From the NCBI GenBank assembly GCA_031292175.1, contig JARLHQ010000024.1, positions 1-64,000 of the forward strand: a DNA stretch of 64,000 bases, read 5' to 3'. Of the stretch, positions 6,184 to 19,184 are shown piece after piece. The notes below the pieces were generated by a model. The model was not told the DNA's origin, made no database searches, and saw only the letters and a program-made list of their open reading frames with translations. The position numbers and the translations under genes are program-made. The number at the start of each line of letters is the position of its first letter. Positions within the stretch are counted from its first letter, which is position 1. The stretch comes from Humidesulfovibrio sp. (GTDB lineage: Bacteria > Desulfobacterota > Desulfovibrionia > Desulfovibrionales > Desulfovibrionaceae).

Positions 6184-8097
6184 CTATTTTTCCCTGGGTA
6201 TCCAGATGCGGAAGGTGGAGCCCTGTCCCGGTTCGCTCACGGCGCCGATGCGTCCGCCGTGCTGGTCAACGGCCTTTTTGGCGATGAACAGGCCGAGCCC
6301 GGTGCCGCGCGAGCCCTTGGTGGAAAAAAAGACGCTGAACAGCCGGGCCAGGGTGTCGGGCTGCATGCCGACGCCGTCGTCCTCAATTTCGAAAAACACG
6401 CCGCTGCAGTCCGGGCGGGCGCGAAAACTGACGGTGTGCGCGGTCTTGGCCTTGTCGTCCCGGCATGCGTCCACGGCGTTTTCCAGGATGTTGATCATGG
6501 CGGCGGAGAGGACACCCTCATCCACGGTGAAGTTGCCGAGGTCCGGGTCGATTTCGACAACAAAGGCGACACCCATCTGGCTGGCCTTGGGGGCCACGGC
6601 CTCGGCCACCTGGGCGGCCAGGTCGGCGGCGGGCATCTCGCGCAGTTGGAGCTCGCGCTTTTTGGCGTAGAAAAGGATGTCGAGCACCATGCCCTTGATG
6701 CGTCCGATGAGTTCGGTGACCTTGCACCAGCCGGCCTGGACGATGTCCTGGTCGTTGGCGCGGAAACCCGCGTTGACTTTGTACACGCCGCCGTCCAGCG
6801 CGGTGAGCAGGCCCTTGATGCCATGGGACAGGGAGGCGATGAGCATGCCGAGCGAGGCCAGGTGGTCCTGCATGCGCGAGAGTTCGGTGATGTCGGTGGC
6901 CATCTCCATGACGGCCTCGATTTCACCCGCAGCGTTGCGGATGGGCGCGGTCCAGATGACCACGTTGACGGGGTCGCCATTTTTGCCGCGCACGGTTATC
7001 TCGGTCTGGTGGGAGCGGCCATCCTCGAAGGTTTTAAGCGTGGGGCAGCCGAAGCAGGGGCGCTCCGAGCCGCAGTAGACCTGGTAGCACAGCCCGCCCG
7101 TGGCGGGGCCGAACTCCTGCCGGAAGCGGCGGTTGGCGGCCTGGATGCGCAGGCTGCGGTCATGCACGGTGATGAAACAGGGCGCCTCATCGAAGAGTTG
7201 CTGGTAGCGCTGGCGGGTGGTGTGCAGTTCGTCCTGCAGGCGCTGCACCTCGCCCGCTTCCACGAGAATTTCCAGCACCAAGTCCACTTGCCCCCCGGCA
7301 CTGTGGATGGGCGCGGTGTGCACGGTGACGGCGGAGAGGGTCTCTTCTGGTCCGAAGAGACCCTCGCGGCTTTTCTGGCCTTGGCCGGTGCGCAGGGTCC
7401 GGGCCACGGGACTGTCGAGGCCAAGGCCAGCCGCTCCCGCGTAGATGGTGAAACCCGGCAGGCCGACGCGGTCGCCCAGCCGCTCGCGGTACAGCTGGTT
7501 CGCGGAGAGTACGCGTTGATCGCGGTCCTGGATGGACACGAGACAGGGCAGGGCGTTGAACATGGCGAACTCGCCAGCGATCTCGCCCGCCAGACCGCCC
7601 ATGGCTTGGGTCAGGCCGTCCACGGCCTCCTGGGCGGCGCACTGGCGCTCCAGCTCCACCAGTTTTTGGGCCTGCTCGCTCACGCGGCTTTCCAATTCGT
7701 CGGTGTACTCGCGCATGCGCCGACGCAGCTGGATTTTGTCCATGGCGCGCTTAAGCGCGATTTCCAGGATCTCGGAGTTCACGGGCTTGGAGATGAAGTC
7801 GCAGGCTTCGAGCTTGAGGCCCTGCACGGCCATCTCCAGGTCGCCGTGCCCGGTGACGAGGATGACCTCGGTCTCTGGGCTTTCGGCCTTGATGCGGCGC
7901 AGGAGCTCAAGCCCGTCCATGCCGGGCATACGGATGTCGGTGAGGACGACGGGCGGCTTTTCGCGATGAAAGATCGCCAGCGCCTCGTCGCCGCTTACGG
8001 CTTCAAGCACGGTGTAGCCCATGTCGGACAGGGTGATGCCGACAACCTTGCGGATGCCGGGCTCGTCATCGACGAGCAGCAGCGTCTTTTCCATCAT
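6184..8097 (-). CDS. Hybrid receiver-PAS-histidine kinase
   Basis: Cytoplasmic two-component protein of about 637 residues in inverted order: an N-terminal receiver (LLLVDDEPGIRKVVG, LTDIRMPGMDG with the phosphorylatable Asp, SKPVNSE lysine), a coiled coil, two PAS-like segments, a HisKA-type helix (SLSHGIKG) and an HATPase domain (NILENAVDAC, GVGMQ, GSRGTGLGL). The second PAS contains a cysteine cluster, CYQVYCGSERPCFGCP, also seen in the kinase at 11801. No transmembrane segment is visible. It is last in the minus-strand series behind two receivers, a Usp and tmc. Start choice is ATG 8097 or 8094, or GTG 8103; none has a strong ribosome site. Confidence 0.8.
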   Translation of the reverse strand: MMEKTLLLVDDEPGIRKVVGITLSDMGYTVLEAVSGDEALAIFHREKPPVVLTDIRMPGMDGLELLRRIKAESPETEVILVTGHGDLEMAVQGLKLEACDFISKPVNSEILEIALKRAMDKIQLRRRMREYTDELESRVSEQAQKLVELERQCAAQEAVDGLTQAMGGLAGEIAGEFAMFNALPCLVSIQDRDQRVLSANQLYRERLGDRVGLPGFTIYAGAAGLGLDSPVARTLRTGQGQKSREGLFGPEETLSAVTVHTAPIHSAGGQVDLVLEILVEAGEVQRLQDELHTTRQRYQQLFDEAPCFITVHDRSLRIQAANRRFRQEFGPATGGLCYQVYCGSERPCFGCPTLKTFEDGRSHQTEITVRGKNGDPVNVVIWTAPIRNAAGEIEAVMEMATDITELSRMQDHLASLGMLIASLSHGIKGLLTALDGGVYKVNAGFRANDQDIVQAGWCKVTELIGRIKGMVLDILFYAKKRELQLREMPAADLAAQVAEAVAPKASQMGVAFVVEIDPDLGNFTVDEGVLSAAMINILENAVDACRDDKAKTAHTVSFRARPDCSGVFFEIEDDGVGMQPDTLARLFSVFFSTKGSRGTGLGLFIAKKAVDQHGGRIGAVSEPGQGSTFRIWIPREK

Positions 8098-8205
8098 GCC
8101 CACTTTTGGCGCACATCCGGTCCGTGGGGCGTGGCGTTCTCTCTCCTGGGTGGAGCATGCCGCGTCCCATCCCGGAACGGAAAGGGGGTTATGGCTCAGG
8201 CGGGC

Positions 8206-8565
8206 CTAGGGCTTGCCGATGGCGCGCTCCACGATTTCCAGCACCTGGGCCGGGTCGAAGGGCTTGTTCACGGTCGCCACGGCCTTGCGGATGGCCAGGT
8301 GGATGCCCGCCAAGCCGCTGATGACCACCACGGGCAGGTCCTTGAACTCCGGCTTCTGGCTGAACTTGCGGTACAGGCGCGGGCCCCATTCGTCGGGCAT
8401 CTCCAGGTCCAGGGTCAGAAGGTCGGGGCGTTCGCTCTCCAGCAGTTCCAAGGCGCCCTCGCCTCCGCTGGCGGAGCAGGTCGCGTAGCCTTTTTCCTTG
8501 AAGATGGAAACGAGGTATTCCACGATGTCCGGATCGTCGTCCACCACCATGATTTTCTTGGCCAT
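8206..8565 (-). CDS. Single-domain response regulator (DivK-like receiver)
   Basis: A 119-residue receiver with no output domain. The acidic pair (MVVDDDPD), phospho-acceptor region (LTLDLEMPDEWG), hydroxyl residue (VVVISGL) and lysine (NKPFDPAQ) are all present. A GAGGAGG ribosome site precedes ATG 8565. Aligned by eye it is about 70% identical to the receiver fused to the Rrf2 protein at 18258-19184, including the unusual EWGPR and GIHxAIxKAVATV stretches. It probably relays phosphate among the neighbouring kinases, or competes with the fused receiver for it. Confidence 0.85.
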   Translation of the reverse strand: MAKKIMVVDDDPDIVEYLVSIFKEKGYATCSASGGEGALELLESERPDLLTLDLEMPDEWGPRLYRKFSQKPEFKDLPVVVISGLAGIHLAIRKAVATVNKPFDPAQVLEIVERAIGKP

Positions 8566-8610
8566 GATTTCGCCTCCTCGGGGTTCCATGTTGCTGGTAG
8601 GATGCGGGCC

Positions 8611-10643: not shown

Positions 10644-11804
10644 CTATAAAACTTTATTTTCATATGATGCTGGTATGATAATATTAAAGGTGCTGCCCTT
10701 GTGTTCCTTGCTCGCAACACAAAGGCTGCCGCCGTGCGCTTCCACGGTCTTTTTGGTAGTCATAAGCCCAAGCCCGCTGCCGCCTTCCCCCTTGGTGCTG
10801 TAAAACGCGGTGAAGAGCTTCGGCCGCGCGGCCTCGGGGATGCCGATGCCGTTGTCCGCCACGCTGTAGTCCACGCCGCCGCTGGGCAAAAGCGCCACGC
10901 GCACGGCCACCGCGCCGCCGGGCTTCTCCGGCCCGTAACCGGCGGCCGTGCAGGCGTCCAGAGCGTTGCCCACAAGGTTCATGAGGCAGCGGTGCAGGGC
11001 CTCGGCGTCGAGCGGAATCTGCGGCAGGTTTTCCTGGGCTTCCAGGGTCAGCGCCAGGCCGGACGCCTGGGCCTGCGTCGCGAGCAGTTCCACCACCTGC
11101 CGGGCTGGGGCGGCGGGGTCCGTGGGCACGGGCTTGAGCGCCTCCGGCTTGGCGTAGCGCAGCATGTCGAGCGAAAGGTTCTTGAGCTTCTGCACGTTGG
11201 CCTCAAGCATCTCAAAGCCCTGCTCCAGGTAGGCTTCGCGGTCGCCCATGAGCCCTTGGCGCAGCAGAAAGAGGCTCCCCTCAAGCCCGCTGGCCATGTT
11301 CTTGATGGCGTGAGACAGATCCGCCACAGTCTGGCCCACCGCCGCCAAGCGTTCGGCGTCCAGCAGTTCGCGGGTCTTCTGTTCCACCAGGCGTTCCAAC
11401 TGCTCGGTGTGTTCGCGGATGGCCCGGCGCATGGCCCGGCGCTCCAGGGCGCGGGAGAGCGCGATGTCCAGCGCGTCGTCGCGGATGGGCTTGGTGACGA
11501 AGTCCGTGGCGTCGAGCTTGATGCCCTGAATGGCCAGGTCGATGTCGCCATGGCCGGTGATGAGGATGACCTCGGTGTCCGGGTCCAAGGCCTTGAGGGC
11601 CCGCAGCAGCTCCAATCCGTCCATGCCCGGCATCTTGATGTCCGTGATGACCACGGGCGTGGGCTCGGCCCGAAACAGGGCCAAAGCCTGCTCGGCGTTG
11701 GCCGCCGTGCGCACCTGGTAGCCCCGGTCGGCCAGACTGAGGCCCAGCACCCGGCGGATACCGTCCTCGTCATCGACAAGCAGCAGGGAGATGGGCTCGC
11801 TCAT
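10644..11804 (-). CDS. Receiver-histidine kinase hybrid (REC-HisKA-HATPase)
   Basis: A 386-residue cytoplasmic protein: N-terminal receiver (LLLVDDEDGIRR, ITDIKMPGMDG, TKPIRDD), a short coiled coil, a HisKA helix with DLSHAIKNM, and an HATPase domain (NLVGNALDAC, DNGIGIP, GGSGLGLMTT). The domain order matches the kinase at 6184 but the PAS domains are missing. Its ATG overlaps the stop of the haem-sensor kinase (11801-11804, ATGA), so the two are translationally coupled and the sensor probably signals through this receiver. Confidence 0.85.
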   Translation of the reverse strand: MSEPISLLLVDDEDGIRRVLGLSLADRGYQVRTAANAEQALALFRAEPTPVVITDIKMPGMDGLELLRALKALDPDTEVILITGHGDIDLAIQGIKLDATDFVTKPIRDDALDIALSRALERRAMRRAIREHTEQLERLVEQKTRELLDAERLAAVGQTVADLSHAIKNMASGLEGSLFLLRQGLMGDREAYLEQGFEMLEANVQKLKNLSLDMLRYAKPEALKPVPTDPAAPARQVVELLATQAQASGLALTLEAQENLPQIPLDAEALHRCLMNLVGNALDACTAAGYGPEKPGGAVAVRVALLPSGGVDYSVADNGIGIPEAARPKLFTAFYSTKGEGGSGLGLMTTKKTVEAHGGSLCVASKEHKGSTFNIIIPASYENKVL

Positions 11805-14113
11805 GCCGACGCGTCTCCTTCCTGTTCAAGCCGTGGCAGGGTGATGATGAACCGTGTGCCTTCGCCCGGTGTGGATTCTGCGCGGATGGTGCCGCCGCAG
11901 TCCTGGATGATGCCATAGCTGATGGACAGGCCCAGGCCCGTGCCCTTGCCTACGCGCTTGGTGGTGAAGAAAGGCTCGAAGATTTTGTCGCGTACGCCGG
12001 GCGCGATGCCGCAGCCCGTGTCGGCAATTTTGACCCGCACTTTGCCGCCAGCGAGGCGCGTGGCCAGGGTGATGCGCTTGGGGCCCTGCGGTGCCTCCAC
12101 CTGCTCCCCGGCGTTTTCCTTGGCCACGGCCCACTTTTCCTCAATTGCGTCGCGCGCGTTGATCAGCATGTTGATGAACACCTGCTCCAGCCTGCCCGCG
12201 TCGGCGCGAACCAGGGGCAGGTCCGGGCTGAGGTCGAGGACCACCTCGATCTCGCGCAGCTTGAGCTGCTGGCTGAAGATGTCCAGCGCGCGCCTCAAAA
12301 TCTCGCTAACGTCCACGGGTTCGAGCTTCATCTCCGGCTTGCGGCCAAACTCGCGCAGGTGGTTGATGATCTTGCTGGCCCGGTCCACGTGGGCATCGAT
12401 CTCAAGCGTCAGCGTGGCCAGGATGTCCCGGGCCAGATCCTCGCCGCGCTCGATCTTGCGGCGAATGAAGCTGGCCGCGGTCTTGATGACCGAAAGGGGC
12501 TGGTTCAGCTCGTGCGCCATGCCCGTGGCCATCTCGCCCAAGGTGGCCATCTTCGAGGCCTGGATGAGCTGTTGCTCGGTCTCCAGGCGTTTTGTCATGT
12601 CGCTGGTGGTGACGAGCAGCACCTTCTGGCCGCTGAACTCCGATGGCGACAGGCGCACGGTGACGAAGAGCCTGCGGCCGTCCTTGGCCACGTTGATGAC
12701 ACGGTCGAGCAGGTTCTTCTGCCGGAGCTTGAGCTGAAAGGCCGCGCGGTCCTCCTCCGGGAACAAGATGAGGAAGCTCTGCCCGGAAAGCTCTGCTTTC
12801 TCGAATCCATACACCGGCTGCACGGACTCGTTGCAGTCCAGGATGACCAAGGTGTTCGCATCCAGCACGAACACAGGGTTCGGAATGTTCTTGAAGATCG
12901 CCAGATACTTGCGTTCGCTTCGCTCCAGCTTGTCTTCCAGCTGCTTGCGGCTGGTGATGTCCAGGCACATCTCCATGGCCGCCACCACCTCGCCCTCCGC
13001 ATTTTTGATGGGGGAGCTGGTGACCAGCCAGTGCCGCATGGCGCCCGTGGCGTCTACGCCGGACTCCTCGCCGGAGAAGGAGCGGCCCGTCTCGAAGCTC
13101 TTCTCCACCGGGCAGTTCGGGCATTTGGAGCTGCGGCCCTTGTACGCGTGGAAGCAGGTGTCGCCGGGCTTGGGCCGGAACTTGTCGCGGAACTCCTGGT
13201 TATAGCGCAGCAGGCGGAAATTACGGTCCTGCACGGTGATGATGCAGGGCACGAGCGAAAAGAGCGTCTGGTACTCGTCGCGCTGGCGGTTCAGCTCGAT
13301 CTGCTTGTCGCTGATGCTCTTGCCCATGCGCTCGATGGTGTGCACGAGGGTGCCCATTTCGTCGGGCTGGTCAATGTCGATGCGCGTGCACTGCCCACCC
13401 TCGGCAATGAGCTGCGCGCCGGTGATGAGTTTGCGGATGGGGCGCATGACAAAGTGGTTCATGAACATGAAGATGACAAGCCCCATGCCCGAGAGCACGA
13501 TGAGCGTGAAGGCCACGCTGCGGGTCTGGAAGGCCTTGATCTCGCGGTCCGTTGGCTCAAGGGAAAGCACGACGTCGATGATGCCCAGGACCTTTTTGTC
13601 CGGCGGGTGGAAGTGGCAGCCTTGGGAGCAGCCCGGTTCGTTGTGGATGGGGCTGATGATGCCGAGCCTGCGCCTGCCGTTCACATCCTTGAAGATTCGT
13701 GTGCGGTTCGCCAGCGGCACATCGGCCGGGGGCGGGCTGGACTGGTGGCAAATGTGGCAGGCCTGGCTACGGATGTTGGCGCCGGTGTCCTTTTCGCCGG
13801 GGATGGTCGAAAACTTGATTTGCCCATCCCGGTTGTAGATGCGGATGGCCTTGATGTCCTTCTGCGAGCCGATATTGGTGATGATCTGATTCAGGTTGTC
13901 GCGCGAATTGACCATCATGGCGTAGCGCGTGCCGAGCTTGATGGTGGTGCCCAGGCGGTCGGCCTCGGCCACCATGTAGCTCATGAGGACGTCTTCCTGG
14001 TGACTGATGGCGAAGTAGGAAAGGGCGGCGACGCTTAGGACGAGCGCAAGGCCCGCCGTGGCGATGAGCTTCAGGACCAGGCTTTTCTGGACGATGCTCC
14101 ACGGGTTGCGCAT
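11801..14113 (-). CDS. Membrane sensor histidine kinase with periplasmic c-type haem motif
   Basis: A 770-residue sensor kinase. Transmembrane helix 1 (about 12-36) and helix 2 (about 199-218) enclose a periplasmic domain containing a canonical haem-c site, CHICH at residues 119-123, and a second cysteine/histidine group at 162-169 (CSQGCHFH) that does not fit CxxCH spacing. After a HAMP domain come a PAS with a cysteine cluster (CFHAY...SKCPNCP), a second PAS, a HisKA helix (GMAHELNQPLS) and an HATPase domain (INARDAIEE, DTGCGIAP, GKGTGLGLS). It lies directly behind tmcA, separated by two hairpins, and overlaps the following receiver-kinase by 4 bases. Covalent haem suggests it senses periplasmic redox state, oxygen or NO; the ligand is unknown. 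Confidence 0.85.
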   Translation of the reverse strand: MRNPWSIVQKSLVLKLIATAGLALVLSVAALSYFAISHQEDVLMSYMVAEADRLGTTIKLGTRYAMMVNSRDNLNQIITNIGSQKDIKAIRIYNRDGQIKFSTIPGEKDTGANIRSQACHICHQSSPPPADVPLANRTRIFKDVNGRRRLGIISPIHNEPGCSQGCHFHPPDKKVLGIIDVVLSLEPTDREIKAFQTRSVAFTLIVLSGMGLVIFMFMNHFVMRPIRKLITGAQLIAEGGQCTRIDIDQPDEMGTLVHTIERMGKSISDKQIELNRQRDEYQTLFSLVPCIITVQDRNFRLLRYNQEFRDKFRPKPGDTCFHAYKGRSSKCPNCPVEKSFETGRSFSGEESGVDATGAMRHWLVTSSPIKNAEGEVVAAMEMCLDITSRKQLEDKLERSERKYLAIFKNIPNPVFVLDANTLVILDCNESVQPVYGFEKAELSGQSFLILFPEEDRAAFQLKLRQKNLLDRVINVAKDGRRLFVTVRLSPSEFSGQKVLLVTTSDMTKRLETEQQLIQASKMATLGEMATGMAHELNQPLSVIKTAASFIRRKIERGEDLARDILATLTLEIDAHVDRASKIINHLREFGRKPEMKLEPVDVSEILRRALDIFSQQLKLREIEVVLDLSPDLPLVRADAGRLEQVFINMLINARDAIEEKWAVAKENAGEQVEAPQGPKRITLATRLAGGKVRVKIADTGCGIAPGVRDKIFEPFFTTKRVGKGTGLGLSISYGIIQDCGGTIRAESTPGEGTRFIITLPRLEQEGDASA

Positions 14114-14215: not shown

Positions 14216-14593
14216 TTATCGCTTGTGGCACTGGCCGCAGGCCACGGGGCCCTTGCCCTTGGCCTTGTGACAGCTGATGCACTGCTTGTGGTAGGCGTTC
14301 ATGAGGCCCGTGCTCTTGTCTTCGGGCTTCACCTTGTGACACTCGGCGCAGGGCGTGCCCTCGGTGGAGGCGGTCTTGTCGATCTTGCCGTCCTTGCCGC
14401 CGTGGTGGCAGACCACGCAGTCCGTCAGTCCGGCCTTTTCGTTGTGCTGCTCATGGTTGAACTGGGCGGCGGGCCGCGTCAGCTTGCCGAAGGCCTCCGG
14501 GGCCAGATTCTTGATGTCCTGCTGCGACATGGCCGCCTGGGCGAAGGCCAGGATGAGCGCGGCCGAAAGCAGAAGCGGGAGTGTGCGTTTCAT
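14216..14593 (-). CDS. tmcA: TmcA, tetrahaem cytochrome c3 (type II)
   Basis: Periplasmic four-haem cytochrome of 125 residues including a signal peptide ([20 protein letters not shown]). Four CxxCH sites are visible: 59-63 CVVCH, 82-86 CAECH, 105-109 CISCH and 119-123 CGQCH, with further histidines available as axial ligands. In Desulfovibrio, TmcA takes electrons from periplasmic hydrogenase/type I cytochrome c3 and passes them to the membrane-bound Tmc complex. Here it is the last structural gene of the tmc set, 11 bp after tmcB. The adjacent tmcB and tmcC separate it from ordinary cytochrome c3 genes. Confidence 0.9.
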
Positions 14594-14604: not shown

Positions 14605-15924
14605 CTAGACCTCGGGTTTTTCCATGCACTCGTAGATGATGTCGCCGAGGAACTTGATCTCCATGCCCAGCTTGTAGCTGTGCACGGTGTCCTCCAGGCC
14701 GCCGTGGCAGTTGTGGCACGGGGCGACGATGGTCTTGACGCCCGTGGCCCGCAACTCGTCGGCCTTGATCTTGCTGCCGGCGACACGCACATTCTTGAAC
14801 GGGGGGCCGCAGTTGATGACGCCGCCGCCCGCCGTGCAGCACAGGTTGTGCTCACGGTTGGAGGCCGTTTCCACGATACCGCCCTCGACCAGGAAGTTCA
14901 CGAGTTCGCGCAGCTTCTCATGCAGTCCCTGGCCGCGCACGACGTTGCACGGGTCATGCACGGTGACTGGGCCGGGATACTTCTTGGACAGCTTAATCTT
15001 GCCTTCCGTCATGAGCTCCCAGAAGTAGGCGATGGAGTGGATCACCGGCACTGGGGGCATCTTCCAGCCCACGGCGCGGTTGCCCATGTCGTAGATCGAG
15101 CGGAAGGCGTGCCCGCACTCGCCCATGACGATGCGCTTCACCTTGAGCTTCTGCGCGCTTTCGAAGTGCTTGCGCTTAAGTCGGCCCATCATCTCGAAGT
15201 CGCCGGTGAACATGCACATGTCCGAGTTGTCCCAGCCGGGCTCGGAGGGCATGGTCCAATCCGCGCCGGCCATGTGCATGATGGCCGCGGCCTGATAGAT
15301 CAGCTGGGTGCGGAACTTGGGCTCCGGCGCAATGACCGAGTAGTAGATGTCCGCGCCCTCTTTGTCGATCGGGATGCGCAGACCGGGGAATTCCTCCCGG
15401 GCCTCGTCCTCCTGCCACATGAGGGTGTCGGTCCATTCGTCGTCCTTCACCCACATCTGGTTGAAGGTGGCGGAGTGGCTGTGCGCCGTGTCCTGGATGT
15501 ACTGCGGGGTGACGCCCAGCTTGTGGCAGATGCGCCGCACCGTGCTTATGATGTAGCCGGTGTCGATGCCGATGGGGCAGTAGTGCACGCAGCGGCGGCA
15601 CAGATTGCACTCGGTGTAGGCCAGCTGGGCCATGCCGTAGATGAAGTCCGGATCGACCTTGCCCTTCTTGTTGAGCAGCACGCTCATGGTCTGGTGCACC
15701 TTGCCCGCCGGGGTGTAGCTCGGGTCTCCCGGATGGGAGAGCGAGAAGTGGCAAGCCTCGGCGCACAGGCCGCAGCGCACGCAGGTTTCGGCGTAGGCTT
15801 TGAGCCGTGCGCCGGTTTCGCCGGTGATGACGGCGTTGACGATCTTCTCGATTTTCTCCGGGGTGAGCCGGGATACCCCGCGCCTAAGCCCCACATCCTC
15901 AATGAGTCTGTCCGCAATGCCCAT
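14605..15924 (-). CDS. tmcB: TmcB, HdrD-like iron-sulfur subunit of the Tmc complex
   Basis: A 439-residue cytoplasmic subunit related to heterodisulfide reductase HdrD/GlpC. Two ferredoxin-type 4Fe-4S sites are seen: C48-C51-C54-C58 ([11 protein letters not shown]) and C106-C109-C112-C116 ([11 protein letters not shown]). They are followed by two cysteine-rich CCG-type regions (HDPCNVVRG with LCCTAGGG, and APCHNCHGG) that in HdrD-type proteins bind a catalytic cluster. It should carry electrons between TmcC in the membrane and a cytoplasmic acceptor. It sits between tmcC (20 bp gap) and tmcA (11 bp gap). Confidence 0.9.
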
Positions 15925-15944: not shown

Positions 15945-16604
15945 TTACCAGTCGCGCGCGTGGCGGACGCCGCCGAACTCCGAGCCCATGTAGGCGCGGG
16001 TGAAGGCGGCGAAGACCATGTGGGAGAGTCGGGTGAAGGGAATGGCCGCGAGCATGATCTCGCCGGCAACCACATGCAGGATGATCATAGCGTTATAGCT
16101 GATGGCCTGATGGTAGGCCAAGAAGCCCGTGAGAAACGGCGCCAGCACGATGACGAGGGCCAGCCAGTCCTTGCCGCTGGTGATGTAGCGCACCTCGGGC
16201 TGCACCAGGCGGCGCCCCGCAAAGTACAGGCAGGCCGCAATGACCACCAGGGTCATGATGTCGGCCGCGTTGTCCGGGATGGTCGCGAAGCTCACGCCGA
16301 AGGCCTGGTTCCACAAGAGCATGTGGGCCACCAGGAAGATGGGCGTGAGGAACAGGCAGGCGTGGAAGACGAAGGTGGCCACGGTCATGACCGGGCTCTT
16401 GCGCCAGCCAAGGGCGTTGAAGGGGATGAGCCAGTTCACGATGGAGCGTAGCGAGAAATGCCAGCTCATGAAGGCGATGGACGTGGCGTCCTTGGTCTTG
16501 GCCAGCTGGTACATGGAGATGAGCCGATAGCCCGAGCCGAGCAGGAATATGCCCCAGGCGGCCCAGGCCAGCGGCCCGGTGACGAATTGATATGCGGCGT
16601 TCAT
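15945..16604 (-). CDS. tmcC: TmcC, integral membrane cytochrome b-like subunit
   Basis: A 219-residue membrane protein with about five or six hydrophobic helices (for example 10-30, 75-95, 113-131, 146-165, 170-192) of the NarI/DsrM type. Histidines in or near helices (FHACLF, VAHMLLW, AYHQAIS, LHVVAGE, LSHMVF) could ligate haem b. It would link quinone or periplasmic TmcA to cytoplasmic TmcB. It starts 21 bp after tmcD with a CAAGGAGGA ribosome site. The call rests on gene order and topology. Confidence 0.85.
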   Translation of the reverse strand: MNAAYQFVTGPLAWAAWGIFLLGSGYRLISMYQLAKTKDATSIAFMSWHFSLRSIVNWLIPFNALGWRKSPVMTVATFVFHACLFLTPIFLVAHMLLWNQAFGVSFATIPDNAADIMTLVVIAACLYFAGRRLVQPEVRYITSGKDWLALVIVLAPFLTGFLAYHQAISYNAMIILHVVAGEIMLAAIPFTRLSHMVFAAFTRAYMGSEFGGVRHARDW

Positions 16605-16625: not shown

Positions 16626-17885
16626 CTAGACTTTGCCCACTTCGGCCACGATGCGGACGAAGGAGCCCTTGTCGATGGCGCGGATGAGCAGCTTGTTGCC
16701 GTCCGGGCTGAAGGTGGGCTCGAAGAGCCGGTCGAAGTCGCGCCCGTACGTGCGGCCGTCCACCACCAGGGTCTGCCGCTTGCCCTTCTCCACCTTCACG
16801 GCCACGTGCCCGCCGAGAGCGCTGATGACCGGTTTCCAGGCCATGTCCCAGCTGCCGGCCCAGGTCTGGCCGTCCACCATGACGTGCCAGTCGGCGTTGT
16901 CGTTGTTGCCCAGGGCGGCCACGCGCTCACCTTCGCGGCCGATGACCAGGTCCGTGACCACGGGGAAGCTGACGGACCAGGGCTTGGCGTTCACGGCCAC
17001 GGTGAAGGCCCCGAACTTCGGCGCCACGATGGCTGCGATGTTCTTGCCGTCCTGGCTGAAGACCTGCTGCCAGCACTGGCAGAACTTGGGCTCCCAGATG
17101 ATCTGGCCGTCCTGGGCCATGCCCCAGGCGCTCTTGACGCGCACCGGAGCCACAGCCTTGCCCGTGGCCGGATTGAAGCGCGGCTCCCAGACGCTGGTGT
17201 AATTCTCGTCCCAGGTCTGGCCGTCCACAGCGATGGTGTAGTCGTACAGGCTCGTGCGCACCTGCGTGGCCACCTTCGCGCCCTGGGCGTCAAAGGCCGG
17301 CGTCCAGCAGTTGACGAAGTTTTTGCCCCAGCTCTGGCCGTTCACGGCTACGCCGAACACGCCACCCTGGAAGGCGTCTAGATCCGCGGGCTTGAGCGAG
17401 GCGAGCTGCACCACGGCGGCCGAGGCCTTGCCGTCGGCGGAGAGCACGCACTGGTTGGCGTTCTCGTAAAGGGTGTCCCAGGGGGCGCCGTCGATGCACA
17501 GGCCGTACTGGCCCCCGCTCTGCATGCAGGCGGCGATGACGTTCCCTTCCTGCGAGAACTGGGTACCCCACAGGAAGTCGAAATTCTCTTCCCAGACCTC
17601 GCCGTCCACGGCCAGGGTCCACATGCCATCCTGCTGAACGATGGCGGTCAGGCGGCCGTCCGGGCTGAAGCGCGGATTCCAGGCTTTGTCGAAGGTGTTT
17701 TCCCAGGGCTCGCCGTTGACCAGCGCCGTAAAGGCGCCTTCCTCCAAGCTGGCCAGGACCGCCACGCGCTCCCCATCCGGCGAGGCGTGCGGCTCCTCCA
17801 CCCAAGCGGCGTTTTCTGGGCGCTCCATGGAGGCGAGGACTACGCGTTGTCCCGATTCCCAATCCCACAAGGCTGGTGGATGCAT
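16626..17885 (-). CDS. tmcD: TmcD, tryptophan-rich beta-propeller-like subunit
   Basis: A 419-residue soluble protein without a signal peptide. It consists of about eight imperfect repeats of some 45-50 residues, each with VDG-x-x-W, then W-x-P-x-FSPDG and a hydrophobic strand, i.e. a WD40/TolB-like propeller. It is the first gene of the tmc operon, preceded by an AT-rich divergent promoter region. Translation most likely begins at ATG 17885, which has GGGGGAGG eight bases upstream; an in-frame GTG at 17930 lacks one. The biochemical role of TmcD is not established; a scaffold on the cytoplasmic face is inference. Confidence 0.8.
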   Translation of the reverse strand: MHPPALWDWESGQRVVLASMERPENAAWVEEPHASPDGERVAVLASLEEGAFTALVNGEPWENTFDKAWNPRFSPDGRLTAIVQQDGMWTLAVDGEVWEENFDFLWGTQFSQEGNVIAACMQSGGQYGLCIDGAPWDTLYENANQCVLSADGKASAAVVQLASLKPADLDAFQGGVFGVAVNGQSWGKNFVNCWTPAFDAQGAKVATQVRTSLYDYTIAVDGQTWDENYTSVWEPRFNPATGKAVAPVRVKSAWGMAQDGQIIWEPKFCQCWQQVFSQDGKNIAAIVAPKFGAFTVAVNAKPWSVSFPVVTDLVIGREGERVAALGNNDNADWHVMVDGQTWAGSWDMAWKPVISALGGHVAVKVEKGKRQTLVVDGRTYGRDFDRLFEPTFSPDGNKLLIRAIDKGSFVRIVAEVGKV

Positions 17886-18257
17886 GCCATTCCTCCCCCG
17901 CACGAAGTGCGTGCGTCTTGAAGTGCTCACAGTACAGAACTAGGGTTAAGCCGGCTCAGCGCATCCATAGCCATTGCTAGGAATAGAATTATAACCGGCA
18001 TCCGGAGCGCTGAATGTAGTTTCGCTTGCAATACTGCCACAGTATTTTTTTTGTGGGAAGCATTTTTTCGTATTTAATGTTTACATACAACTAAAGTATG
18101 TATATGATATTAAATCATATCAGCCTAGTGTGAGTTGAAATGAAGTCGGATATGGCGTACAGCATCAACCTGAGAATCTAGAATAGATGAGCGTTATGGC
18201 TGAATTGAATATATGATTTTGTAATATAAGAACATTTTTCAAGTGAGGGGGACGCTC
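17886..18257. promoter_or_regulatory. AT-rich divergent promoter region between tmcD and the rrf2-receiver gene
   Basis: 372 bp without a gene, far more AT-rich than its surroundings. On the minus strand a perfect TATAAT lies at 17993-17988, about 100 bp upstream of tmcD; no clear -35 box accompanies it. Three inverted repeats follow: 18030-18046 (7-bp arms, 3-bp centre, AATACTG arm), 18082-18102 (7-bp arms, TACATAC) and 18102-18120 (7-bp arms, ATATGAT). The first lies about 50-65 bp upstream of the predicted tmc start point. These are candidate operators for the divergent Rrf2-type regulator or for a partner of the kinases. Confidence 0.55.
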
Positions 18258-19184
18258 ATGCGCCTGACCACCAAAGGCCGTTACGGGATGCGGCTCGTGC
18301 TGGACATTGCTCAGCACGAAAAGTACGGGCCGGTCTCCATGGCCGAGACCTCCCTGCGGCAGGACATTTCAGCTAAATATCTCGAGCGGTTGGTTGGTGA
18401 GCTGCAGCGGGCGGGCATCGTCAAAAGTCTGCGCGGGCGCGAGGGCGGGCATCTGCTCGCCGTTCCGCCAGACAAGATCACCGTGGGCGATATCGTACGC
18501 GTGCTCGAGGGAGAGTCCGCGCAACTGGTCTGCAGCCACAACCGTCTGTCTTGCCCGCGCTCCGTGCACTGTCTCACCCGGGCCATCTGGGTCGCCGCGG
18601 ACCAGGCCATGTTCGAGAAGCTCGATTCCGTCACCGTGCAGGACATCATGGACGACGGGCAGAACTGCATCTCCAAAAAAGAGGCCGCACAGGCCGGTTT
18701 GGGCCGGAGCAAGGCCATCCCGGCGCCTCTTTTGGACGCCAGCGGACGCCGGAAGGCCGTGCGACGGATCTTGCGCCAGCGTTTTCTCCAAAATGGCTCG
18801 GCCCGGCCACAGAAGCTTCCGGGCGCGCCGAAAAAAATCATGGTCGTGGACGACGACCCGGATATCGTCGATTACCTCGTGACCGTATTCCGCGAGCGCG
18901 GCTACGACACCTGCAGTGCAACAGGGGGGATCGAGGCGACCGAGGTGCTCCTGCGGGAAAACCCGGACCTCATCACCCTGGACCTGGAAATGCCGGAGGA
19001 ATGGGGCCCGCGCTTCTACCAGCGCTATGCCCGCATGCCGGAGTACAAGCACATCCCCGTTGTCGTCATCAGCGGGTTGCCTGGCATTCATATGGCCATC
19101 CCCAAGGCCGTCGCCACCGTGCGCAAGCCCTTTGATCCTGCACAGGTGTTGCAACTTGTCGAGGGAATCATCGGCGCGCCCTAG
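18258..19184 (+). CDS. Rrf2-family Fe-S regulator fused to a response-regulator receiver
   Basis: A 308-residue fusion. Residues 1-135 are an Rrf2/IscR-type winged helix (MRLTTKGRYGMRLVLDIA, REGGHLLA wing) with three cysteines at 92, 99 and 105, almost the spacing of the IscR cluster ligands (92/98/104), so an iron-sulfur cluster is likely. A basic linker (about 140-190) leads to a receiver domain (IMVVDDDPD, LDLEMPEEWG, VRKPFDPAQ) close to the stand-alone receiver at 8206. Rrf2 was first named beside the response regulator Rrf1 at the Desulfovibrio hmc operon; here both functions are in one polypeptide facing the tmc operon. GAGGGGG precedes ATG 18258. It probably regulates tmc and itself. 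Confidence 0.85.
   Translation: MRLTTKGRYGMRLVLDIAQHEKYGPVSMAETSLRQDISAKYLERLVGELQRAGIVKSLRGREGGHLLAVPPDKITVGDIVRVLEGESAQLVCSHNRLSCPRSVHCLTRAIWVAADQAMFEKLDSVTVQDIMDDGQNCISKKEAAQAGLGRSKAIPAPLLDASGRRKAVRRILRQRFLQNGSARPQKLPGAPKKIMVVDDDPDIVDYLVTVFRERGYDTCSATGGIEATEVLLRENPDLITLDLEMPEEWGPRFYQRYARMPEYKHIPVVVISGLPGIHMAIPKAVATVRKPFDPAQVLQLVEGIIGAP

Follow-up and report, generated by a model that had tools for sequence, protein, structure and literature searches.

Here, we describe a single polypeptide in which an Rrf2 winged-helix domain is joined to a complete response-regulator receiver and whose gene faces away from the tmc operon, as found in a stretch of 64,000 nucleotides of Humidesulfovibrio DNA (hereafter, the window). 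The fusion itself, its conservation, the kinship of its receiver and a pair of operator-like sites linked exclusively to the fusion within the genus are directly visible in the sequences compared. They point to a regulator that is devoted to tmc and controls its own gene, with an Rrf2 half that would bind DNA and a receiver that would be fed by the kinases of the tmc operon, a reading to which we assign a probability of roughly 55%.

The fusion gene occupies positions 18258–19184 of the forward strand (coding part 18258–19181, stop codon TAG at 19182–19184), is preceded by a ribosome-binding-like GAGGGGG and encodes 308 residues in a frame that is open throughout. Its N-terminal domain (residues 3–133; 18264–18656) matches the Rrf2 model PF02082 over model positions 1–132 of 132 with 127.8 bits (cut-off 30), which places it in the Rrf2 family, and scores 124.1 bits against TIGR00738 (cut-off 73.3). 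The alignment shows a linker that varies in both length and sequence (residues 138–190; 18669–18827), followed by the receiver (residues 194–301; 18837–19160), which scores 59.7 bits against PF00072 (cut-off 30.2) and belongs to the DVU0259 family (168.6 bits against NF045717, DVU0259_DivK in NCBIfam; cut-off 160). A preliminary description of this DNA had proposed a single chain composed of an Rrf2 domain and a complete receiver, with cysteines at positions 92, 99 and 105. The open frame and the two Pfam domains above cut-off confirm the former, and the cysteines lie exactly where they were placed, together with a fourth, Cys137, just past the Rrf2 domain, which had gone unmentioned. A stop codon between the domains, named in that description as an observation that would speak against a true fusion, occurs neither here nor in any other fusion copy. 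Cys92, Cys99, Cys105 and Cys137 are invariant in all 13 full-length copies, and so are the five residues of the complete phosphorylation pocket, namely the acidic pair D198/D199, the acceptor D242, S272 and K290. Across 10 pairs of fusion copies, dN/dS ranged from 0.03 to 0.13 for the Rrf2 half, from 0.05 to 0.18 for the receiver and from 0.16 to 0.92 for the linker, such that both domains stayed well below 1 in every pair tested.

Beyond an intergenic region of 372 bases (17886–18257), the tmc genes lie in the order tmcDCBA on the opposite strand, with tmcD adjacent to the fusion gene, in agreement with the divergent arrangement proposed earlier. TmcD (16626–17885; 419 residues from a likely ATG at 17885) scores 600 bits against NF045725 (cut-off 440), a value taken on the longer listed frame with a GTG start at 17930, while TmcC (15945–16604; 346.2 bits against NF045723, cut-off 240) and TmcB (14605–15924; 826.6 bits against NF045724, cut-off 735) likewise exceed their NCBIfam equivalog cut-offs. 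TmcA (14216–14593; 125 residues, four CxxCH motifs) was called by motif and place. Tmc plays an important part in the oxidation of hydrogen by D. alaskensis G20 (PMC4215793). Past tmcA, and on the same strand, follow a histidine kinase (HK1; 11801–14113), a hybrid of a receiver and a histidine-kinase ATPase domain (10644–11804), a hypothetical protein, a universal stress protein, two free receivers and a second kinase. The latter, HK2 (6184–8103), combines a receiver with a histidine kinase and adjoins RR2 (8206–8589), a free-standing receiver of the DVU0259 family. With 69% identity, RR2 is the nearest paralogue of the fused receiver in a genome that is 81% complete, where the next receiver match reaches 35%. 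HK1 and HK2 are, judging by their sequences and position, candidate phosphate donors for the fused receiver.

HK1 carries HAMP, PAS, HisKA and HATPase domains behind two hydrophobic stretches (residues ~7–38 and 197–223 in a plain hydropathy scan), which flank a CxxCH motif at residue 119. All 41 distinct homologous sensor sequences among the loci examined, which come from both tmc and hmc loci and count that of the window, retain this motif. HK1 is therefore likely to contain a periplasm-facing haem-c sensor. Residues 142–186 gave a weak match to PF21563 (40H sensor), at 22.4 bits below the cut-off of 27.

The distribution of the fusion was surveyed across 348 genomes of the order, where matches down to E ~4e-39 were listed and the best six candidates per genome were scored. 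At least 13 full-length copies were identified in at least 12 genomes, comprising at least 11 of the 15 genomes of the window's genus (with two copies in G219) and at least one of the 333 genomes outside it, G013, which belongs to another family (f3); a very divergent fusion could lie beyond the matches listed. The recurrence of the fusion in these genomes, free of internal stops, rules out an assembly artefact. The preliminary description had proposed searching the Desulfovibrionales for such fusions along with their neighbourhoods and had regarded absence from every relative, together with a tmc unaffected by loss of the fusion, as evidence against its proposal. As to the former, the opposite was found, both in the presence of the fusion across the genus and in G013 and in its location, divergent from tmcD in 12 of the 12 copies that have upstream sequence. 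The thirteenth copy (L009) has 35 bases upstream on its contig. Among the matches listed, four genomes of the genus yielded no full-length fusion. One of them, G223, has a relative with a degenerate receiver, described below. In the other three, G213, G221 and G222, the contig that carries tmc breaks off within tmcC or tmcD, and the place beside tmcD is therefore missing from these contigs. As G222 is 99% complete and its contig breaks at tmcD, either true loss of the fusion or its non-assembly would account for the result in this genome. A wider draw of 395 genomes from the phylum (matches listed down to E ~1e-26, best five candidates per genome scored) returned a full-length match in at least three genomes, all from the window's genus among the matches listed.

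Several further candidates were rejected. In G317, G321 and G328, the two halves are encoded by separate genes with a stop between them, and the long frames near Rrf2 genes in G462, G434, G095, G537, G348 and G478 proved on reading not to be Rrf2 fusions; at L162 and L165, kinases follow in frames of their own. The long frames in genus g12 are two-receiver fusions instead (two genomes examined); at these loci (L145 and L146), both genomes encode the two free receivers that neighbour the universal stress protein as one protein. A partial literature search, which did not extend to the original hmc and Rrf papers, returned no published Rrf2–receiver fusion.

In the TmcB tree, G013 falls in an 18-row branch (support 99) together with the TmcB proteins of the window's genus and three from genus g4, the latter without a fusion. 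The tmc cluster was thus likely transferred into G013 together with the fusion (L016/L139), yet the case is not clean, because the branch also holds the fusion-free g4 members.

To place the two halves, we compared trees of each. In the receiver tree, built by a quick method from 116 rows and only 117 columns, with rows shorter than 100 residues and duplicate loci left out and with several of the tmc and hmc labels assigned by hand from neighbouring genes, the 14 fused rows, two of which are identical, group as a single branch with an SH-aLRT support of 94. They share a branch of 25 rows (92) with 11 free tmc receivers from the genus and from G013, and this branch is in turn nested in a larger one of 39 rows (95), made up of tmc and unlabelled receivers with no hmc row among them. 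In the Rrf2 tree (51 rows, with long branches that meet), the 16 fused rows, G223's among them, again form one branch (100), apart from the hmc Rrf2 groups, and no donor of the Rrf2 half could be recognised in these 51 rows. As the fused rows make up one branch in both trees, and the one in the receiver tree lies among tmc receivers, a single origin of the fusion from a duplicated copy of the tmc receiver is probable. A derivation of the fused receiver from hmc Rrf1 is rejected on the receiver tree, where hmc receivers were called Rrf1 by position and DVU0259 family. Read literally as a joining of the hmc proteins Rrf1 and Rrf2, the preliminary description is not supported for either half, as the receiver branches with the tmc receiver and the Rrf2 half lies outside the hmc groups.

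IscR binds its cluster through three cysteines and a histidine, His107. The Rrf2 half of the fusion shares the winged-helix domain of IscR, NsrR, RsrR and CymR, but differs from them by its additional receiver, by its CX6CX5C cysteine spacing and by an arginine at the place of IscR His107. This residue, Arg108, is an arginine in every fused row, and a histidine occupies the corresponding place in 2 of the 51 Rrf2 domains compared. The scores against the equivalog models of IscR (TIGR02010, 117.3 bits, cut-off 207.55), NsrR (NF008240, 55.5 bits, cut-off 182) and CymR (NF047409, 99 bits, cut-off 195) all fall below their thresholds, while the nearest solved chains by sequence are 4cic, 3lwf, 2y75 (CymR), 3t8r (CymR) and 4hf0 (IscR). 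The earlier label 'IscR-like' is therefore apt only in part, given the CX6CX5C spacing, Arg108 at the histidine place and the missed TIGR02010 cut-off.

The 51 Rrf2 domains displayed two mutually exclusive cysteine layouts, with either a three-cysteine loop and a Cys137-like residue or a four-cysteine loop. Expressed as raw counts, in which kinship between rows is included, a cysteine within three columns of position 137 was present in 33 of the 38 domains with a three-cysteine loop and in none of the 13 with a four-cysteine loop. This distribution suggests four cysteine ligands in both loop types, and since a cysteine near 137 tracks the three-cysteine loop and is missing with the four-cysteine loop, Cys137 is likely the fourth ligand of the putative cluster of the fusion.

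Two promoter-like sites were found in the intergenic region, against 0.6 expected from shuffles, and one of them (TTTACA-17-TATGAT, 18080–18108, forward strand, 10 of 12 consensus matches) is positioned to serve the fusion gene. A putative operator, O1 (CATAC-N7-GTATG, 18084–18100, no mismatches), lies in the spacer between its -35 and -10 elements and overlaps the last two bases of the -35, as part of a longer palindrome, TACATAC-N7-GTATGTA, over the promoter-like site. At a distance of 32 bp from O1 lies a second putative operator, O2 (CATAT-N7-GTGTG, 18116–18132), with two mismatches to the O1 pattern, and 54 bp from O1, towards tmc, lies a third dyad, AATAC-TGCCACA-GTATT (18030–18046), which is complete only in the window, L010 and L012, with its TGCCACA core present in 10 of 12 intergenic regions. 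No clear tmc promoter was found in the intergenic region. On the tmc side, the TGGCA-TTGCA stretch was considered by eye as a sigma-54 promoter and rejected, its spacing being 3 bases short of the consensus.

All 12 intergenic regions contain the pattern CATAC-N7-GTATG, with up to two mismatches, as two copies at a spacing of exactly 32 bp (0.01 expected from shuffles). This count is partly circular, as the motif was derived from the alignment of these same regions. The single operator pattern was present in 9 of the 12, and the control pattern GTATG-N7-CATAC, with up to two mismatches, once in each of 3. Free of this circularity is the genome-wide search, in which the tandem operator, with up to three mismatches over the pair, was found 11 times in the 15 genomes of the genus, each time at a fusion locus; these hits fall in 10 genomes, with two in G219, and the backward-read control returned none. 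In the eleventh genome with a fusion, G214, the contig ends 35 bases before the gene. The strength of the palindrome within a single AT-rich region is not above chance, with 16% of shuffles reaching the window's best. Within the genome of the window, the longer O1 pattern has a single exact occurrence, O1 itself, and recurs with three mismatches at one place, and the backward-read control gave equally many. It is hence exclusivity and conservation, not palindrome strength, that carry the operator case. The architecture is a genus-level one with a single apparent target. The 7-bp centre is also found in the ScNsrR site, described as 23 bp with a central 7 bp (PMC9338935), a geometry that the candidate operator matches.

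From these features, we infer DNA binding, the sign of regulation, phosphorylation and a cluster for the fusion protein as follows. A dimer would use its Rrf2 winged helices to bind both CATAC-N7-GTATG operators, which are separated by about three turns of the DNA helix. As one operator overlies the promoter spacer of the fusion gene and the other its approximate predicted start, self-repression is the most likely outcome, and a weaker third site would face tmc. Control of tmc itself would be less direct, because both O1 and O2 overlie the promoter of the fusion gene. HK1 and/or HK2 would phosphorylate the receiver and thereby alter DNA binding, while a cluster on Cys92, Cys99, Cys105 and probably Cys137 would tie DNA binding to redox, NO or iron conditions in the cytoplasm. 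A periplasmic signal, passed on by HK1, and a cytoplasmic one could in this way be combined in one polypeptide at the promoter of Tmc, taken as a complex that moves electrons between the periplasmic and cytoplasmic sides. More tentatively, and at clearly less than even odds, the Rrf2 domain may be regarded as a response-regulator output that integrates, at the tandem operator, a periplasmic electron-carrier signal from the CxxCH kinase with the state of its own cluster. The fused receiver may also have another role, since the free receiver RR2 is still present.

A related second fusion bears on these proposals. G219, which carries the Rrf2–receiver fusion, also encodes an Rrf2-PAS-HisKA-HATPase fusion of 551 residues (L121:192-1844, minus strand; G219:C4) behind the tmcA of a second tmc operon. 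Its kinase part is 70% identical to HK1, and an Rrf2 domain replaces the membrane sensor. If Rrf2 does act as a response-regulator output, this protein would complete the circuit as its matching half. It was the sole full-length match in the 348 genomes among the best four candidates per genome.

The strongest rival to a phosphorylation-controlled tmc regulator is that the receiver merely serves as a dimerisation or docking module independent of phosphorylation, which would leave an essentially ordinary Rrf2 one-component regulator of itself and of tmc. It draws on a relative in G223 (L114:3014-4300, minus strand; G223:C345), an Rrf2–receiver protein of 421–428 residues with a long linker, followed by an HK2 relative, in which the Rrf2 half is kept but the receiver is degenerate and lacks both the acidic pair and the lysine. 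Phosphorylation may therefore be dispensable in one lineage, and Rrf2 genes beside tmc and hmc elsewhere do without a fused receiver. Yet a pocket that is unchanged in all 13 full-length copies and a receiver with such low dN/dS speak against a mere docking role, which we consider unlikely, at about one chance in five. Less probable still is an inverted arrangement, in which the Rrf2 half senses and the receiver is the output, drawing phosphate from the tmc kinases as a sink or competing for them, while RR2 is the actual effector. The close paralogy of the two receivers, which may share their kinases, would allow it, as would the G219 kinase with its Rrf2 domain in place of the membrane sensor, and the authors of PMC5701242 term an adjacent Rrf2 protein a sensor. 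It sits poorly, however, with an Rrf2 half that is the most conserved part of the fusion and with the exclusive tandem operator that accompanies it, and we regard it as improbable. That the protein is mainly an hmc regulator, or a global redox or Fe-S regulator, and stands beside tmc by chance is the least probable of all, for although rrf1 and rrf2 of D. vulgaris Hildenborough are described as genes for regulators that act on hmc expression (figure legend in PMC10924467) and the hmc loci of G000 and G216 pair an Rrf2 gene with no detected receiver in the stretch examined, the tandem operator is confined to fusion/tmc regions in 15 genomes, no single operator with up to one mismatch was present in the hmc stretches L113 and L166 (one strand scanned, the motif being self-complementary), and the G000 hmc locus has its own Rrf2 of another cysteine type.

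The dedicated tmc regulator proposed here belongs to a wider pattern in which Rrf2 proteins and receivers are encoded together. Among 16 hmc-type loci with a DVU0259-type receiver, a separate Rrf2 gene lies close by in 12, a share that is biased upward, as these loci were fetched by their likeness to the fusion. The hmc loci of G000 (L113, G000:C2) and G216 (L166, G216:C4) are not counted among the 16; they have the Rrf2 gene directly after HmcF and, unlike most hmc-type loci examined in other genera, no DVU0259-type receiver was found in the stretch examined there. Downstream of tmcB, on the same strand and with room for tmcA, a free Rrf2 gene is present at L026, L137 and L138 in another genus; in other genera, such genes lie near a kinase or receiver (L126, L128-L130). 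At L149:2257-2607 (G276), a receiver of the DVU0259 type faces away from a free-standing Rrf2 gene and has an asparagine at the expected acceptor aspartate.

The Rrf1/Rrf2 pair of hmc, described as regulating hmc expression (PMC10924467), likewise places a receiver gene and an Rrf2 gene beside those of a transmembrane redox complex. There, however, two genes are involved, while the fusion is one polypeptide at tmc, a contrast drawn here through the proteins of the hmc loci compared. In D. desulfuricans 27774, the adjacent genes Ddes_0843 (Rrf2) and Ddes_0844 (receiver) are strongly induced together by nitrate and are called a two-component system by the authors, with the Rrf2 protein as sensor (PMC5701242); these too are separate genes, known here from the paper's description. 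The earlier proposal that Rrf1-type and Rrf2-type proteins act together gains from gene order, from the Rrf2–receiver and Rrf2–kinase fusions and from this co-induction. Joint action is well supported by these comparisons, because of gene order and fusion, but the idea is not wholly new, an adjacent and co-induced Rrf2/receiver pair being already in print (PMC5701242). Overall, the earlier proposal points the right way, while its details on the origin of the receiver and the likeness to IscR are at most partly borne out; the integration of Fe-S sensing with phosphorylation that it also suggested may hold.

The free receiver RR2, likewise a member of the DVU0259 family, has no output domain, whereas the fused receiver has a partner of DNA-binding type in the same chain. 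Classical response regulators of the OmpR, NarL and NtrC types also combine a receiver with a DNA-binding domain in one chain. In contrast to these, the output-side domain of the fusion is an Rrf2 domain, lies N-terminal to the receiver and may carry a cluster. The fusion may represent a new output class for response regulators.

Rrf2 proteins and receivers recur together at hmc, at tmc and, as an induced pair, in print (PMC5701242), and the partial literature search returned no mechanism by which they would act jointly. The fusion reduces this recurring pair to a small, testable system with one protein, one intergenic region and few candidate inputs, and it would link a conserved CxxCH sensor kinase to the control of energy metabolism in sulfate reducers.
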